Source of the DNA: a virus | Virus record (IMG/VR): IMGVR_UViG_3300005530_000085 | Location: 1 to 20,834 of that record | Direction: 5' to 3' (one strand) | DNA length: 20,834 nt | Shown here: in pieces, positions 11,271-20,184 of the stretch | How positions within the stretch are numbered: the stretch's first letter is position 1 | Layout of the letters: each line of letters begins with the position of its first letter | Made by a program: the position numbers and the translations under genes | The notes under the pieces: generated by a model | Seen by the model: the letters and a program-made list of their open reading frames with translations, nothing else | Database searches by the model: none | Told to the model about the DNA's origin: nothing

Positions 11271-11343
11271 GCTTTCGTAGCTCAATTGGCAGAGCGGCTG
11301 TTTTGTAAACAGCGGGTTGTGGGTTCGAAGCCTACCGGAAGCT
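11271..11343 (+). tRNA. tRNA-Thr(UGU)
   Basis: Full cloverleaf. Acceptor GCTTTCG/CGGAAGC, D stem GCTC/GAGC with GG in the loop, anticodon stem GCTGT/ACAGC with loop TTTGTAA (anticodon TGT, U33 present), variable GGGTT, T arm GTGGG-TTCGAAG-CCTAC. CCA is not encoded. It would read ACA codons. First element of the noncoding block. Confidence 0.95.
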
Positions 11344-11398
11344 CTAGGGTGGCGGCGTGGCTATATGACACGCGAATCGCGCATCAGGGAGTTGTCAA

Positions 11399-11468
11399 CG
11401 GGAGGTGGTGCAGTGGTAGCACGCGCCATGTGGTTGGCAAGGGGGCTGTTCGATTCAGTCCCTCCCGA
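11399..11468 (+). tRNA. tRNA-like, possibly His(GUG), with abnormal anticodon loop
   Basis: Perfect acceptor CGGGAGG/CCTCCCG, D arm GTGC-AGTGGTA-GCAC, T arm GGCTG-TTCGATT-CAGTC. The anticodon arm is short: GCCA/TGGC closes a 6-nt loop TGTGGT (or GCC/GGC an 8-nt loop), one base off the usual seven. If U33 is 11429 or 11431 the anticodon cannot be fixed; TGTGG with U33 then GTG would be His. A C-A mismatch sits at the outer pair. Isotype is uncertain. Confidence 0.55.
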
Positions 11469-11534
11469 TTAAAACGAGGCGTCACTTCACGCCTACCTGA
11501 TGCTTAGCCGGGGCAGGACCGGCCCACCCTACAC
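11469..11534 (+). other. Spacer between tRNAs with two small hairpins
   Basis: AGGCGT-CACTTC-ACGCCT is a 6-bp hairpin and GCCGG-GGCAGGA-CCGGC a 5-bp hairpin. No coding frame with a ribosome site. They may be processing signals or tRNA remnants. Confidence 0.3.
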
Positions 11535-11607
11535 GGGCCTATAGCTCTAACGGCAGAGCGGCGCCCTTGCAAGGCGATGGTTCGGGGTTCGAATCCTCGT
11601 GGGTCCA
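11535..11607 (+). tRNA. tRNA-Ala(UGC)
   Basis: Acceptor GGGCCTA/TGGGTCC carries the G3-U70 wobble that identifies alanine tRNAs. D stem GCTC/GAGC, anticodon stem GCGCC/GGCGA (outer G-A mismatch) with loop CTTGCAA (anticodon TGC), variable TGGTT, T arm CGGGG-TTCGAAT-CCTCG. CCA not encoded. Reads GCA codons. Confidence 0.93.
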
Positions 11608-11711
11608 CGGACGGTGTCCAAATACACCCAACCCCGACCGGGTTGTAAAGCCTTGGCATGACGTTGCCGGTAAAGATCGGTGCGAAGAAATCTCGCGGGA
11701 AACCGGCGGTC
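11608..11711 (+). ncRNA. Structured spacer, no gene seen
   Basis: A run of hairpins: GGTGT/ACACC with a 6-nt loop, CAACCC/GGGTTG with a 5-nt loop, GGCA/TGCC, and an outer GCCGGT/ACCGGC enclosing GCGA-AGAAATC-TCGC. No T-run follows any of them and no complete tRNA can be folded. It may be an RNA in its own right or the remains of one or two tRNAs. Confidence 0.3.
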
Positions 11712-11790
11712 GTCTCTGTAGTTCAAATAGAAAGAACACCGGGGCCTTGAACAAGCACCGGCGACATCGGGGCGGTACCGATCAGGGACA
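11712..11790 (+). tRNA. tRNA-like with lengthened anticodon arm, possibly Phe(GAA)
   Basis: Acceptor GTCTCTG/CAGGGAC (7 bp) and D stem GTTC/GAAC fit a tRNA. The D loop lacks the GG pair, and the T arm ATCGG/CCGAT has the non-standard loop GGCGGTA instead of TTCRANY. The anticodon arm is 23 nt, not 17: CCGGGGC/GCACCGG (one G-A mismatch) around CTTGAACAA, whose centre is GAA (Phe). Either a decayed tRNA or a tRNA-shaped RNA; its 3' part overlaps a terminator-like hairpin. Confidence 0.4.
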
Positions 11791-11801
11791 CCGACCTTTT
11801 T
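11770..11801 (+). terminator. Terminator-like hairpin overlapping the tRNA-like element
   Basis: GGGCGGT (11770-11776) pairs with ACCGACC (11790-11796) with one mismatch across a 13-nt loop and is followed by TTTTTATT. Its stem uses T-arm and 3' bases of the tRNA-like element, so only one of the two structures can form at a time. Confidence 0.45.
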
Positions 11802-11834
11802 ATTGACTGGGCATGGCCCTGATGCCGGGCCACA

Positions 11835-11906
11835 GCGCATGTAGCTCAGTGGTAGAGCGGACGGTCTCAACAGCCACGGTCGCAGGTTCGAGTCCTGCCA
11901 TGCGCA
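11835..11906 (+). tRNA. tRNA-like with defective anticodon stem
   Basis: Acceptor GCGCATG/CATGCGC (perfect), D arm GCTC-AGTGGTA-GAGC, T arm GCAGG-TTCGAGT-CCTGC are all canonical and the total length is right (72 nt). The 23 nt between D and T arms do not give a 5-bp anticodon stem. The best fold is GGT/GCC next to loop CTCAACA (anticodon CAA, Leu), with two outer mismatches; a register giving CTC (Glu) has 3 of 5 pairs. No long variable arm, which argues against Leu. Isotype open. Confidence 0.6.
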
Positions 11907-11972
11907 CACCGAGTGTTAGCCGAGCTTGGAAGGCGCCATAAAGTCGGCTCGTGGCCATGACGAAGCGTGGCA

Positions 11973-12043
11973 GTGCATGTCGTCTAAAGGCAGGACGCCG
12001 GCCGATGTGGCCGGGGGTGGCCGTTCGATTCGACCCATGCGCA
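11973..12043 (+). tRNA. tRNA-like lacking U33 in anticodon loop
   Basis: Acceptor GTGCATG/CATGCGC (one wobble), D stem GTCT/GGAC with AAAGGCA loop, perfect anticodon stem CCGGC/GCCGG, T arm GGCCG-TTCGATT-CGACC (one C-A mismatch). The 7-nt anticodon loop is CGATGTG: G instead of the near-universal U33, and ATG in the anticodon place. One base shift would give U33 plus GTG (His) but a poorer stem. Its 3' end CCATGCGCACA is the same as that of the element before. Confidence 0.55.
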
Positions 12044-12046
12044 CAA

Positions 12047-17309: not shown

Positions 17310-17475
17310 GATAACCGATCGTCAGGCGTTCGCCGAGATGGGTATCGCGAATCTGACGCATGCGCAGTTCCGGCTTGATGATGGCGATTGGCGGCCACTG
17401 AGTGAGTACGTATCGCAGCCCGCAGGATCTGCTAATTCAAACATACCAGCGGGCCTATCTGCGGATTCTCGATGA
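17191..17475 (+). CDS. Small hypothetical protein overlapping the portal and minor head genes
   Basis: A 94-aa frame with a strong ribosome site GGAGG (17178-17182) 8 nt before the ATG. It begins basic (MARKATKDKPVKLDFRITPGAM), has a charged helix AKRLELERKVRRGEITDR and ends in a low-complexity Ser/Ala part. It overlaps the portal gene by 119 bp and the minor head gene by 74 bp, so about two thirds of it is overprinted. Both portal tail and this frame look plausible. Function unknown. Confidence 0.55.
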   Translation: MARKATKDKPVKLDFRITPGAMQAIQAKRLELERKVRRGEITDRQAFAEMGIANLTHAQFRLDDGDWRPLSEYVSQPAGSANSNIPAGLSADSR

Positions 17476-18472
17476 CCTGATCGCCGCCGCTCAGGCCGAT
17501 CGCTCCACCGCCTATTATCAGGCACTCCAAGCCGACATCGAAGACATTCTACGCGGCTTGGATAGTCAGGCGCAGAGCTGGATCGAACAGCAAGTGCCGG
17601 CCATCTATCAGGCAGGCATGCAGGCCGCGATTTCGGGTCTGAGCGCGGCGGGCGTCGAGGGCGTGGCCGTTTCATCGATGACCGGCATACACCGTACAGC
17701 GGTCGAGATTCTGGCCCAAAACATGTACGGCGATCTGACCGGCGCCACGGCCACCATGGGCCGCTCGGTGAACGATCTCTTCCGGCAAGTCTCGCTCGAT
17801 ACCGTGGCGCAAAAGGTCGCGACCGGACGCACGATCCCACAGTCAGCCAAGGCGCTGCAAACGGCACTCGCAGACAAGGGCGTAACGGCCTTCACTGATC
17901 GTGCCGGCCGGGACTGGCGACTTGACAGCTATTCTGAGATGGTGGTCCGCTCATCGACGCGCGAAGCCACCAATCACGGCACAATGAACCAGTTGACGAG
18001 CCTCGGCTATGACTTGGTGCAGGTCAGTTCGCACTTCCCGACCTGCAATATCTGCGCACCCTATCAGGGCCGGGTCTATTCAATCAGCGGTCAGGATCGG
18101 CGCTTTCCGCCGCTCTGGACCACCGTCTTCAGCGCGGGCTATGCCAATATCCACCCGCGCTGCTCGCATGTGGTCATGCCCTACGTCGAAGTCTTCGCCG
18201 ATGATCTCGACGGTGATATCGCGCGCTCGAATCAGTCCTTCGATGTTGACCCACGGCTCGAAGCCGAGCGGCAAGCCTTCGCGAACGGACAGGCGCGGAA
18301 ACGGGCCGCCAATCAGGACTTCAACCAGTGGCAGCGTTACCGTGAACGGCTGCCCAATGACGCGCCGACGCTGGCCGGATTCCGGCGCATGAAGGCGGCC
18401 AATAGCCAGCGCTATCAAGAGCTGCAAAGCCTCTATCGTGATGCAGGACAGGCGCTCAATGCCGCGTCCTGA
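17402..18472 (+). CDS. Minor head protein, Phage_min_cap2-like
   Basis: A 356-aa protein following the portal. The GTG start at 17402 gives STYRSPQDLLIQTYQRAY, matching the family N-terminus; no strong ribosome site is seen and the start is not certain. The key region at about residues 180-260, with SSTREATNHGTMNQLT, SHFPTCNICAPYQGRVYSISG (two Cys and a His in the middle) and IHPRCSHVVMPY, is characteristic of phage minor capsid protein 2/head morphogenesis proteins. It is thought to be a component of the head near the portal. The C-terminal 90 residues are basic and helical. Confidence 0.85.
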   Translation: MSTYRSPQDLLIQTYQRAYLRILDDLIAAAQADRSTAYYQALQADIEDILRGLDSQAQSWIEQQVPAIYQAGMQAAISGLSAAGVEGVAVSSMTGIHRTAVEILAQNMYGDLTGATATMGRSVNDLFRQVSLDTVAQKVATGRTIPQSAKALQTALADKGVTAFTDRAGRDWRLDSYSEMVVRSSTREATNHGTMNQLTSLGYDLVQVSSHFPTCNICAPYQGRVYSISGQDRRFPPLWTTVFSAGYANIHPRCSHVVMPYVEVFADDLDGDIARSNQSFDVDPRLEAERQAFANGQARKRAANQDFNQWQRYRERLPNDAPTLAGFRRMKAANSQRYQELQSLYRDAGQALNAAS

Positions 18473-18473
18473 T

Positions 18474-18545
18474 GGGGATGCCAGGAACGCCCGACCGGTG
18501 CCAGTGCGCTGATCGGATACGGCGGTTCGATTCCGCCCATCTCCA
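18474..18545 (+). ncRNA. tRNA-like element with canonical ends but no cloverleaf middle
   Basis: Begins one base after the minor head stop codon. GGGGATG (18474-18480) pairs with CATCTCC (18538-18544), 7 bp with one wobble. T arm GGCGG-TTCGATT-CCGCC (18521-18537) is perfect and directly next to the acceptor strand. The 40 nt between them, the right length for D plus anticodon arms, fold instead as one hairpin CCGGT, GC bulge, CAG-TGCG-CTG, ATCGG. No D arm and no 7-nt anticodon loop. ACC follows the 3' strand. Confidence 0.5.
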
Positions 18546-18549
18546 CCGT

Positions 18550-18573
18550 AACCGGCCCACGGCGGCCGGTTTT
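18550..18573 (+). terminator. Rho-independent terminator after the tRNA-like element
   Basis: AACCGGCC (18550-18557) pairs perfectly with GGCCGGTT (18564-18571) around CACGGC, with the stem running into TTTT. It would end transcription of the packaging genes before the scaffold and capsid genes. Confidence 0.75.
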
Positions 18574-18635: not shown

Positions 18636-19238
18636 ATGGCCGAAGAGACGACGGCTGAGACGAACGATCAAACGACCGAGGATAACCAGACCCAGGACGG
18701 CGCTGGGACCAATGCAGCCGGTGAACGCACGTTATCGCAGGCCGAAGTCGATCGCATCGTTCAAAAGGCCAAGCGCCAGGCCGCTGAGGCCGCGCGCAAG
18801 GAGTTCGAAGACAAGGCGGCACAGGCGGCCATGTCCGAGACCGAACGTCTCAAGGCCGAAAAGGACAGCGCGACCAAAGCCGCGCAAGCCGCCACCGAGG
18901 CCGCCAACCAGCGCATCATCCGCGCCGAAGCCAAGGTCAAGGCGCTCGAACTCGGCTTCAAACCCGAGCGCGTCAATGCCGCGATGCGCCTGGCTGATCT
19001 GTCCGAGGTGACGATCACCGACGCCGGCGAACCAGAGGCCGACGCCCTCGAAGCGGCGCTCAAGGCTGTGCTGGCCGAATATCCCGAGTTCAAGGCGAAT
19101 GCGACCGGCGCCAATATCGGCAGCGGGAGCAACCCGGCGAGTAGCGGGGCGACGCGCCTCGATACCGCCAACCTCTCGAAAGACGAATTCGACAAGCTCA
19201 CCCAGCGCATCATGCGCGGTGAGGTTGTGCGCCCATAG
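18636..19238 (+). CDS. Capsid scaffold-like protein
   Basis: A 200-aa acidic, helical protein. Start 18636 has GGAAGGA (18621-18627) 8 nt upstream; the open frame from 18579 is not preceded by a site. Residues 1-35 are polar and disordered (Thr/Asn/Gln/Glu-rich), 40-110 are a long coiled coil (RIVQKAKRQAAEAARKEFED then KAAQAAMSETERLKAEKD), followed by LGFKPERVNAAMRLADLSEV and LKAVLAEYPEFK. This matches phage scaffold proteins such as the GP20/DUF4355-type, which are made just before the major capsid protein. Confidence 0.85.
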   Translation: MAEETTAETNDQTTEDNQTQDGAGTNAAGERTLSQAEVDRIVQKAKRQAAEAARKEFEDKAAQAAMSETERLKAEKDSATKAAQAATEAANQRIIRAEAKVKALELGFKPERVNAAMRLADLSEVTITDAGEPEADALEAALKAVLAEYPEFKANATGANIGSGSNPASSGATRLDTANLSKDEFDKLTQRIMRGEVVRP

Positions 19239-19251
19239 GAGATAAACCCAC

Positions 19252-20184
19252 ATGCCAACCACGCAGACGACGGGAACCTCTGCCATCTCTGAGGAGATGA
19301 AGACCTTTTACTCGCGCCAGCTCTTGGAGCGCGCGCTGCCGGTGCTGGTGCATGGCCAGTTCGGCCAGCCGCGACCGCTGCCGCGCAACGGCGGCAAGTC
19401 GATCGAGTTCCGCCGCTTCAACGTCCTGACGGCCAACACCACGGCCCTGACGGAAGGCGTCACGCCGGGCGGCAACAGCCTCGATACCAGCGCCGTGACG
19501 GCCACCATCGCTCAGTATGGCGACTTCATCCAGGGCTCGGATCTGCTTGATCTGACGGCGTTCGATCCGGTCCTGACCGAAACGGCGCAACTGCTCGGTG
19601 AGCAGGCCGGCCTCTCGATGGACCACATTGTTCGCGACATTCTGGCGGCTGGGACCAGCGTGCAGTACGCGGCTGGTCGCGCGAGTCGCATCACCGTGGC
19701 GGCCGGCGATAACCTGACCGTGGCGGAAATCCGCAAGGCCGTGCGCACGCTCAAGCGCAACAAGGCCCGCTCGCTGGCGTCCGGCGATTATGTCGCCATC
19801 GTCGAGCCGGGCGTGACCTATGATCTTCAGGGTGATTCCGATTGGAAGACGCCTTCGCAGTACAGCGCTGTACAGCAGATCTTCAGCGGCGAGATCGGCC
19901 GGCTCTATGGTGTGCGCTTCGTGGAGACGACTGAAGCTGTGGTCTTCAGTGGCGCCGGCGCTTCGGGCATCGATGTCTACGGCACGATCGTGCTGGGCGC
20001 CAATGCCTACGGCATGATCCCGCTGGAAGGCGCGGGCCTCGAATTCCTGTTCAAGCCAGCCGGCTCGGCCGGTACGGCCGATCCGCTCGATCAGCGTTGG
20101 ACCTCCGGCTGGAAGGTCGCGTTCACCGCGAAGATTCTTCAGGACCTGTACATGCTGCGCATCGAGCACGCCGTTAGCGGCTAG
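19252..20184 (+). CDS. Major capsid protein, N4-gp56 family
   Basis: A 310-aa protein behind a TAGGAGAT ribosome site. The N-terminal region FYSRQLLERALPVLVHGQFG, then GGKSIEFRRFNVL, TALTEGVTPGGNSL, ATIAQYGDFIQGSDLLDL and LLGEQAGLSMDHIVRDIL fits the N4-gp56-type HK97-fold capsid family closely. The middle (AEIRKAVRTLKRNKARS) and the C-terminal GWKVAFTAKILQDLYMLRIE also fit. It forms the head shell. It has no obvious N-terminal delta domain of its own, since a separate scaffold gene is next to it. It is followed by its own terminator-like hairpin. Confidence 0.93.
   Translation: MPTTQTTGTSAISEEMKTFYSRQLLERALPVLVHGQFGQPRPLPRNGGKSIEFRRFNVLTANTTALTEGVTPGGNSLDTSAVTATIAQYGDFIQGSDLLDLTAFDPVLTETAQLLGEQAGLSMDHIVRDILAAGTSVQYAAGRASRITVAAGDNLTVAEIRKAVRTLKRNKARSLASGDYVAIVEPGVTYDLQGDSDWKTPSQYSAVQQIFSGEIGRLYGVRFVETTEAVVFSGAGASGIDVYGTIVLGANAYGMIPLEGAGLEFLFKPAGSAGTADPLDQRWTSGWKVAFTAKILQDLYMLRIEHAVSG

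Follow-up and report, generated by a model that had tools for sequence, protein, structure and literature searches.

Nearly all bacteria possess trans-translation, in which tmRNA rescues ribosomes, and to our knowledge very few phage countermeasures against it have been described. The closest described relative of the element analyzed here is the 'TLD only' tmRNA (tmID 11587) of mycobacteriophage DS6A, TLD being the tRNA-like domain. Two papers report inhibition of E. coli tmRNA by DS6A-like TLD RNA, an effect that may come from SmpB titration and that occurs 'whether or not chargeable'. Tag-less forms have also been described from organelles: the mitochondrial tmRNA RF02544, which co-occurs with SmpB, and the ∼65-bp tmRNAs without a CDS in Mallomonadaceae plastids. 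Within the accessible parts of the literature searched, we found no phage TLD-only tmRNA other than that of DS6A.

Here we compare these systems with a tRNA-ended RNA at positions 18474–18545 (+ strand) of a 20.8-kb virus record, the whole of which we refer to as the window. Judged from its sequence, the element is very probably a phage-borne TLD-only tmRNA gene, or 'mini-tmRNA', of the DS6A type; it is neither a full tmRNA, since it has no message domain and scores below the Rfam gathering score, nor a tRNA. It resembles tmRNA (RF00023) in an acceptor with G3·U70 and A73, a T arm and a stemless D stretch, but lacks the message domain together with its tag frame and the pseudoknots, and measures 71 nt plus ACCG rather than several hundred nucleotides. 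With tRNA-Ala it has G3·U70, A73 and the T arm in common, whereas the D arm and anticodon arm of that tRNA are missing. A tmRNA end without a tag frame is common to the element, the plastid RNAs and RF02544, although the latter two are organellar genes, likened to it through their published descriptions rather than by aligned letters. The element is likewise placed with DS6A by testable features and description, not by sequence alignment; it comes from a different phage, and the window copy lies beside a minor head gene, carries CCG and has a D loop other than UUCGAC.

A tRNA-ended RNA among the head genes

The gene order in the window is TerS-TerL-portal-minor head-scaffold-major head, and the element occupies the gap between the minor head stop codon (TGA, 18470–18472) and the scaffold start at 18636 (Table 1). 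A single spacer base separates the stop codon from the start of the RNA, just as the preliminary description of this DNA had reported. The 7-bp acceptor stem and perfect T arm on which that description was built were also recovered intact (7/7 and 5/5 pairs), and its view that D and anticodon arms are lacking agrees both with the computed fold and with the absence of any call at 18474–18545 by ARAGORN or the Rfam tRNA model RF00005. The 40 nt between the acceptor 5′ strand and the T arm, described as a single bulged hairpin, do fold as one hairpin, but its flaw is a 1×1 mismatch and not a bulge. The energy of the whole fold is modest (z −1.6), with 13 of 200 shuffles equally good, and the hairpin at 18491–18516 has a predicted energy of −14.4 kcal/mol (z −1.6). 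The combination of T arm and acceptor in 18474–18545 is far from chance: 300 first-order Markov random windows, read on both strands, contained 20 T arms and no such combination, while a scan of the window for a T arm with a 7-bp acceptor matched the element and three of the five tRNAs called by ARAGORN. Downstream, where a terminator had been claimed, the 8-bp hairpin at 18550–18571 is real in the fold; however, its U tract is short, the terminator scanner did not list it, and it would be a weak terminator at best.

Elsewhere in the window, positions 11271–12044 hold the five clustered tRNA-like genes, only three of which pass the Rfam tRNA score. The anticodon of the gene at 11399–11468 is unreadable, and the gene at 11973–12044 is read as tRNA-His(ATG).

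Table 1. Features of the element and its flanking genes, in window coordinates.
Feature	Position	Strand	Basis
Minor head protein gene	17402..18472	+	phrog_4611, phrog_581
Acceptor stem 5′ strand GGGGATG; G3 = 18476	18474..18480	+	7/7 pairs with 18538–18544; RF00023 positions 1–7
Stemless D-loop-like stretch CCAGGAACGC, 10 nt	18481..18490	+	Unpaired in minimum-energy fold
Hairpin in place of message domain and pseudoknots	18491..18516	+	Fold; covarying helix 2 of class
Linker ATAC, conserved AC ahead of T stem	18517..18520	+	Alignments of minis
T arm GGCGG-TTCGATT-CCGCC, 5/5 pairs	18521..18537	+	Fold; RF00023 and mini-model alignments
Acceptor stem 3′ strand CATCTCC; U70 = 18542	18538..18544	+	Fold; RF00023 alignment
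Discriminator A73 (18545), then CCG, not CCA	18545..18548	+	Sequence
8-bp GC-rich hairpin AACCGGCC/GGCCGGTT, T tract short; may be a weak terminator	18550..18571	+	Fold
Head scaffolding protein gene	18636..19238	+	phrog_2303
Major head protein gene	19252..20184	+	phrog_1357

With matches admitted by E-value, the best Rfam match to the element is tmRNA (RF00023), at 28.3 bits (E 9e-10) in one search and 36.9 bits in a second, against a gathering score of 47 bits, and this family outscores the others of its clan at 18474–18545. Because the alignment spans the whole model, both outermost positions included, apart from a 300-nt deletion in its middle, the element resembles a tRNA-like domain in which a hairpin closes off the place where a message domain would begin. 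Letters are shared in the acceptor (GGGG..G / C..CTCC), in the T arm and at the GG of the D stretch. The 'tRNA-like structure' that had been suggested as one explanation stands, except that its ends are those of a tmRNA, which the earlier reading had missed, and not those of a tRNA with lost arms. No message domain with a tag frame and pseudoknots is present, there being only the 40 nt for it, and the window holds neither a second RF00023 match nor a tmRNA called by ARAGORN. Sub-threshold RF00023 matches are not specific, occurring in 14 of 14 control genomes, archaea included. A covariance model built from 44 of the related phage elements ('minis') described below, with the window excluded, scored the element at 49.7 bits (E 3e-8) and the best tRNA of the window at 24.9 bits.

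From RF00023 and the minis we read the D-loop motif UGGnUUCGAC. The unpaired stretch of the element matches the D-loop stretch of other minis in place and has GG in common with it; in the window D region as a whole, CCAGG-AACGCC-CGAC, the GG and CGAC are there, the UU and the motif spacing are missing, and the CGA is paired in the minimum-energy fold.

A covarying class of mini-TLDs in phages

Two patterns were used to search IMG/VR. The first, a tmRNA-like acceptor with a T arm, returned 97 stretches, among them some real tRNAs and many minis of 63–89 nt, and the second, which fixes only the UUCGAC D stretch, GGACG and the T arm, returned 61. Pooled, they yielded 69 distinct mini-TLDs in 49 clusters at 80% identity, a count reached after 22 loci had been dropped by eye (17 tRNA-like; L012, L017, L021, L080 and L089 doubtful), with the L089 sequence retained through L099. 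The window element has two other copies, from other samples (L002 and L003), both 100% identical. Of the IMG/VR loci obtained with the first pattern, 63 fit a slightly stricter form of it, a figure that includes repeat copies of the virus in the window; among 85 thousand genomes of bacteria and archaea, this form matched nine stretches. By inspection, most of these nine are the 3′ ends of full tmRNAs and only L155 is a mini. The contig that carries this mini-TLD (L155:1450–1526, 65.3 bits) was assigned to an archaeal Nitrosotalea MAG; its first ORF resembles a phage muramidase, and since the contig looks like phage it is probably mis-binned.

The class shows strong covariation. We analyzed 44 minis, obtained from a 52-row alignment by removing the window, a row that is a tRNA by inspection (L146:3430, among the rows of the structure-fitted version) and six others that were poorly aligned or hard to place (L052, L090, L114, L130, L138 and L142). 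In a MAFFT alignment of these sequences, which is not structure-fitted, pairing is kept in 95.4% of cells, double-sided changes occur in 13 of 18 pairs, and the covariation score is 0.583 versus 0.123 for shuffled and at most 0.167 for slid controls. All six pairs of the hairpin, which every search pattern leaves unconstrained, are among the 13. The structure-fitted alignment agrees with this result, and the middle segment folds better than the shuffle mean in 44 of the 49 clusters (mean z −1.17). A failure of base pairing among relatives had been named in advance as grounds for rejecting the fold; pairing is instead kept across the minis, with the caveat that the named relatives examined simply lack the element (8/8 loci).

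Several of the longer minis (L006, L016, L057, L069, L129 and L139) have in common a two-tier hairpin, made of an outer stem, an A-rich internal loop and a short CC..GG inner stem, which is possibly a protein-binding motif.

The RF00023 cut-off is passed on 41 of 51 sampled carrier records, so minis can be logged as tmRNA genes even though they are unable to encode a tag. None of the 51 carrier records holds an SmpB gene (10 of 14 genomes match in the control) or a further RF00023 match above the cut-off beside the mini; both absences are weak, because many carrier records are fragments.

Alanine identity and a proposed decoy mechanism

G3·U70 together with A73 is the known alanine identity set, and the window copy carries it at 18476·18542 and 18545. 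In the minis of the first pattern, and in most rows of the structure-fitted alignment, G3·U70 is forced by the search pattern and was therefore not used as evidence of alanine identity. An acceptor-free scan for UUCGAC gave 43 unique matches, of which 35 have at least six acceptor pairs. G3·U70 and A73 are present in all 35 and likewise in the acceptor of one further mini of this class (L063), the remaining seven having no matching acceptor. Acceptor positions 4–7 change freely with compensation, and CCA is encoded in only 15 of the 35. A second class, defined by a UGGUAAG D stretch, comprises at least 94 unique matches; among the matches listed, 59 are tRNAs, 20 have no matching acceptor and 15 are mini-like. 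Again among those listed, G3·U70 and A73 occur in 12 of the 12 matches with seven acceptor pairs, and the other three mini-like matches, with 6/7 pairs and none of them G·U at 3–70, were judged false.

On this sequence evidence, we conclude that the alanine identity of the minis is under selection. That a charging identity is kept without an encoded CCA suggests that maturation of the RNA involves processing, CCA tailing and charging. If DS6A-like RNA inhibits without charging, so strict an identity would argue for a job beyond passive titration of SmpB. An invariant alanine identity amid a drifting acceptor lets a charged, message-less tRNA-like domain on the stalled ribosome be probed directly. 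Within the literature searched, the breadth of the mini-TLD class in phages and its strict alanine identity are new.

In the mechanism that we propose, the element would be transcribed together with the packaging/minor-head mRNA, RNase P would cut at 18474, and 3′ enzymes would trim the other end. The host CCA-adding enzyme would then supply CCA, and the host alanyl-tRNA synthetase would charge the mini with alanine. The charged TLD would be expected to bind EF-Tu, and SmpB through the D stretch. Acting with these two host factors, it would rival the host tmRNA in access to SmpB and to stalled ribosomes; as it offers no message to switch to, trans-translation would be blocked or short-cut late in infection. 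We give such an alanine-charged decoy in host trans-translation an even chance, and we favor it because DS6A-like TLD RNA is reported to inhibit tmRNA. Possibly, the element would at the same time be an RNase P cut site that ends the packaging mRNA. More tentatively, with the balance leaning slightly the other way, many phages may carry diverse alanine-charged mini-tmRNAs that attack or hijack host ribosome rescue and that in some cases are cut from the 3′ end of a head mRNA, timed with capsids.

Genomic setting and alternative readings

The position of the element, 1 nt past the minor head stop and upstream of the scaffold and MCP genes, raises the alternative of processing punctuation. On this view the tRNA-like fold would serve as a target for RNase P and for a 3′ enzyme, and the released RNA would be jobless; the cut itself would end the packaging/minor-head mRNA, separating it from the strongly expressed scaffold and capsid genes. 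Taken as a whole, we regard this reading as unlikely. A comparable arrangement does exist with another head type, where 19 of 80 HK97-type protease loci, fetched only by homology of the neighboring protease gene, have a full mini 5–9 nt past the protease stop and ahead of the capsid gene (eight of the 80 end at most 60 bases past the protease match and are uninformative). These 19 minis represent 11 distinct sequences, 10 of them with G3·U70. In a further locus (L038) the mini directly follows a stop codon and precedes a strong hairpin and T run. However, minis have varied neighbors, including HK97-type protease and capsid, minor head and scaffold, DnaB helicase, small and large terminase subunit, exonuclease, methyltransferase and unknown genes, and many lie outside head operons. 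Nor is a position just past a stop codon special to minis: 15 of 47 are near one, as are 19 of 77 first-in-cluster phage tRNAs (p = 0.41). An apparent excess over all phage tRNAs (13/44 versus 21/355) is gone against the first-in-cluster tRNAs, and as it persists only in an uncorrected subset with ORFs of at least 150 aa (8/44 minis versus 3/71 tRNAs, p 0.02), we do not rely on it. Punctuation would also leave unexplained why G3·U70 and A73 are invariant while neighboring pairs change.

Most of the remaining protease loci have no mini, and a few have shortened forms lacking G3·U70. Directly 3′ of the protease stop, still smaller forms occur at L199:1215–1259, L204/L205:4198–4242 and L195:1215–1264, in which only a short stretch with no hairpin connects the acceptor to the T arm; the 3–70 pair of the altered forms is A-U in L199, L204 and L205 and G-C in L195 and L189. 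Short hairpins of the GCGGAGCCGC type repeat in the HK97-type protease-capsid gaps of many of the loci L163–L241, with or without a mini. In L120, L125, L142 and L145 the UAG stop of the upstream ORF, which in L125 encodes the small terminase subunit, ends on G1 of the mini, so that an RNase P cut there would give a non-stop mRNA.

Conservation of alanine identity would also fit a tag-less form of ribosome rescue, in which the charged TLD with SmpB takes the stalled chain and the ribosome disassembles untagged. Phage proteins from cut mRNAs would then escape degradation, and the RNA would help rather than inhibit, as has been proposed for tag-less mitochondrial tmRNA, whose reported co-occurrence with SmpB fits this idea. 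The one experiment cited for DS6A-like RNA is reported to have found inhibition instead, and we consider tag-less rescue improbable. We know of no release step for rescue by a charged TLD without a tag, which also counts against it.

Distribution bears on two further possibilities. The element is missing from all eight named/GenBank phage loci whose minor head protein is related, from a TerL relative (L107) and from the MCP relatives L102–L104, although L102 and L103 say little on conservation because the minor head-scaffold order is missing there as well. Absence from nine head/terminase-related loci rules out a conserved part of the head module; the element is thus not head machinery and is gained and lost in the manner of phage tRNA genes. 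Such patchiness would also suit a relic, that is, a fragment of a host tmRNA or tRNA-Ala that entered through recombination or attachment-site use and has been drifting since, as would the altered forms at protease loci (L195, L199 and L189) and, in the window copy, the CCG in place of CCA, the atypical D loop and a score under the Rfam cut-off. Compensatory changes across the class and the invariant alanine identity speak against this origin, which the preliminary description had offered, and make it very unlikely for the minis as a whole, as do the perfect acceptor and T arm of the window copy; that copy alone, given its CCG and D loop, may be a weaker or decaying member. Of an attachment site one would moreover expect the 3′ part alone to persist, as in a BLAST match to phiNP that lies at the very end of the record. 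An attP at a tRNA or tmRNA is dismissed, as both acceptor strands are there and the neighbors are head genes, not integrase.

BLAST of four minis against named phages gave matches to 3′ ends only. Of the matches examined, L108–L112 and L162 proved by ARAGORN to be full permuted tmRNAs, and PegLeg (L113) has an annotated full-length tmRNA. The tmRNA of Acinetobacter phage BUCT628 (Obolenskvirus; L162:1944–2277) is unannotated, encodes the tag ANDNVFGAKTLAA and lies in the head-gene region.
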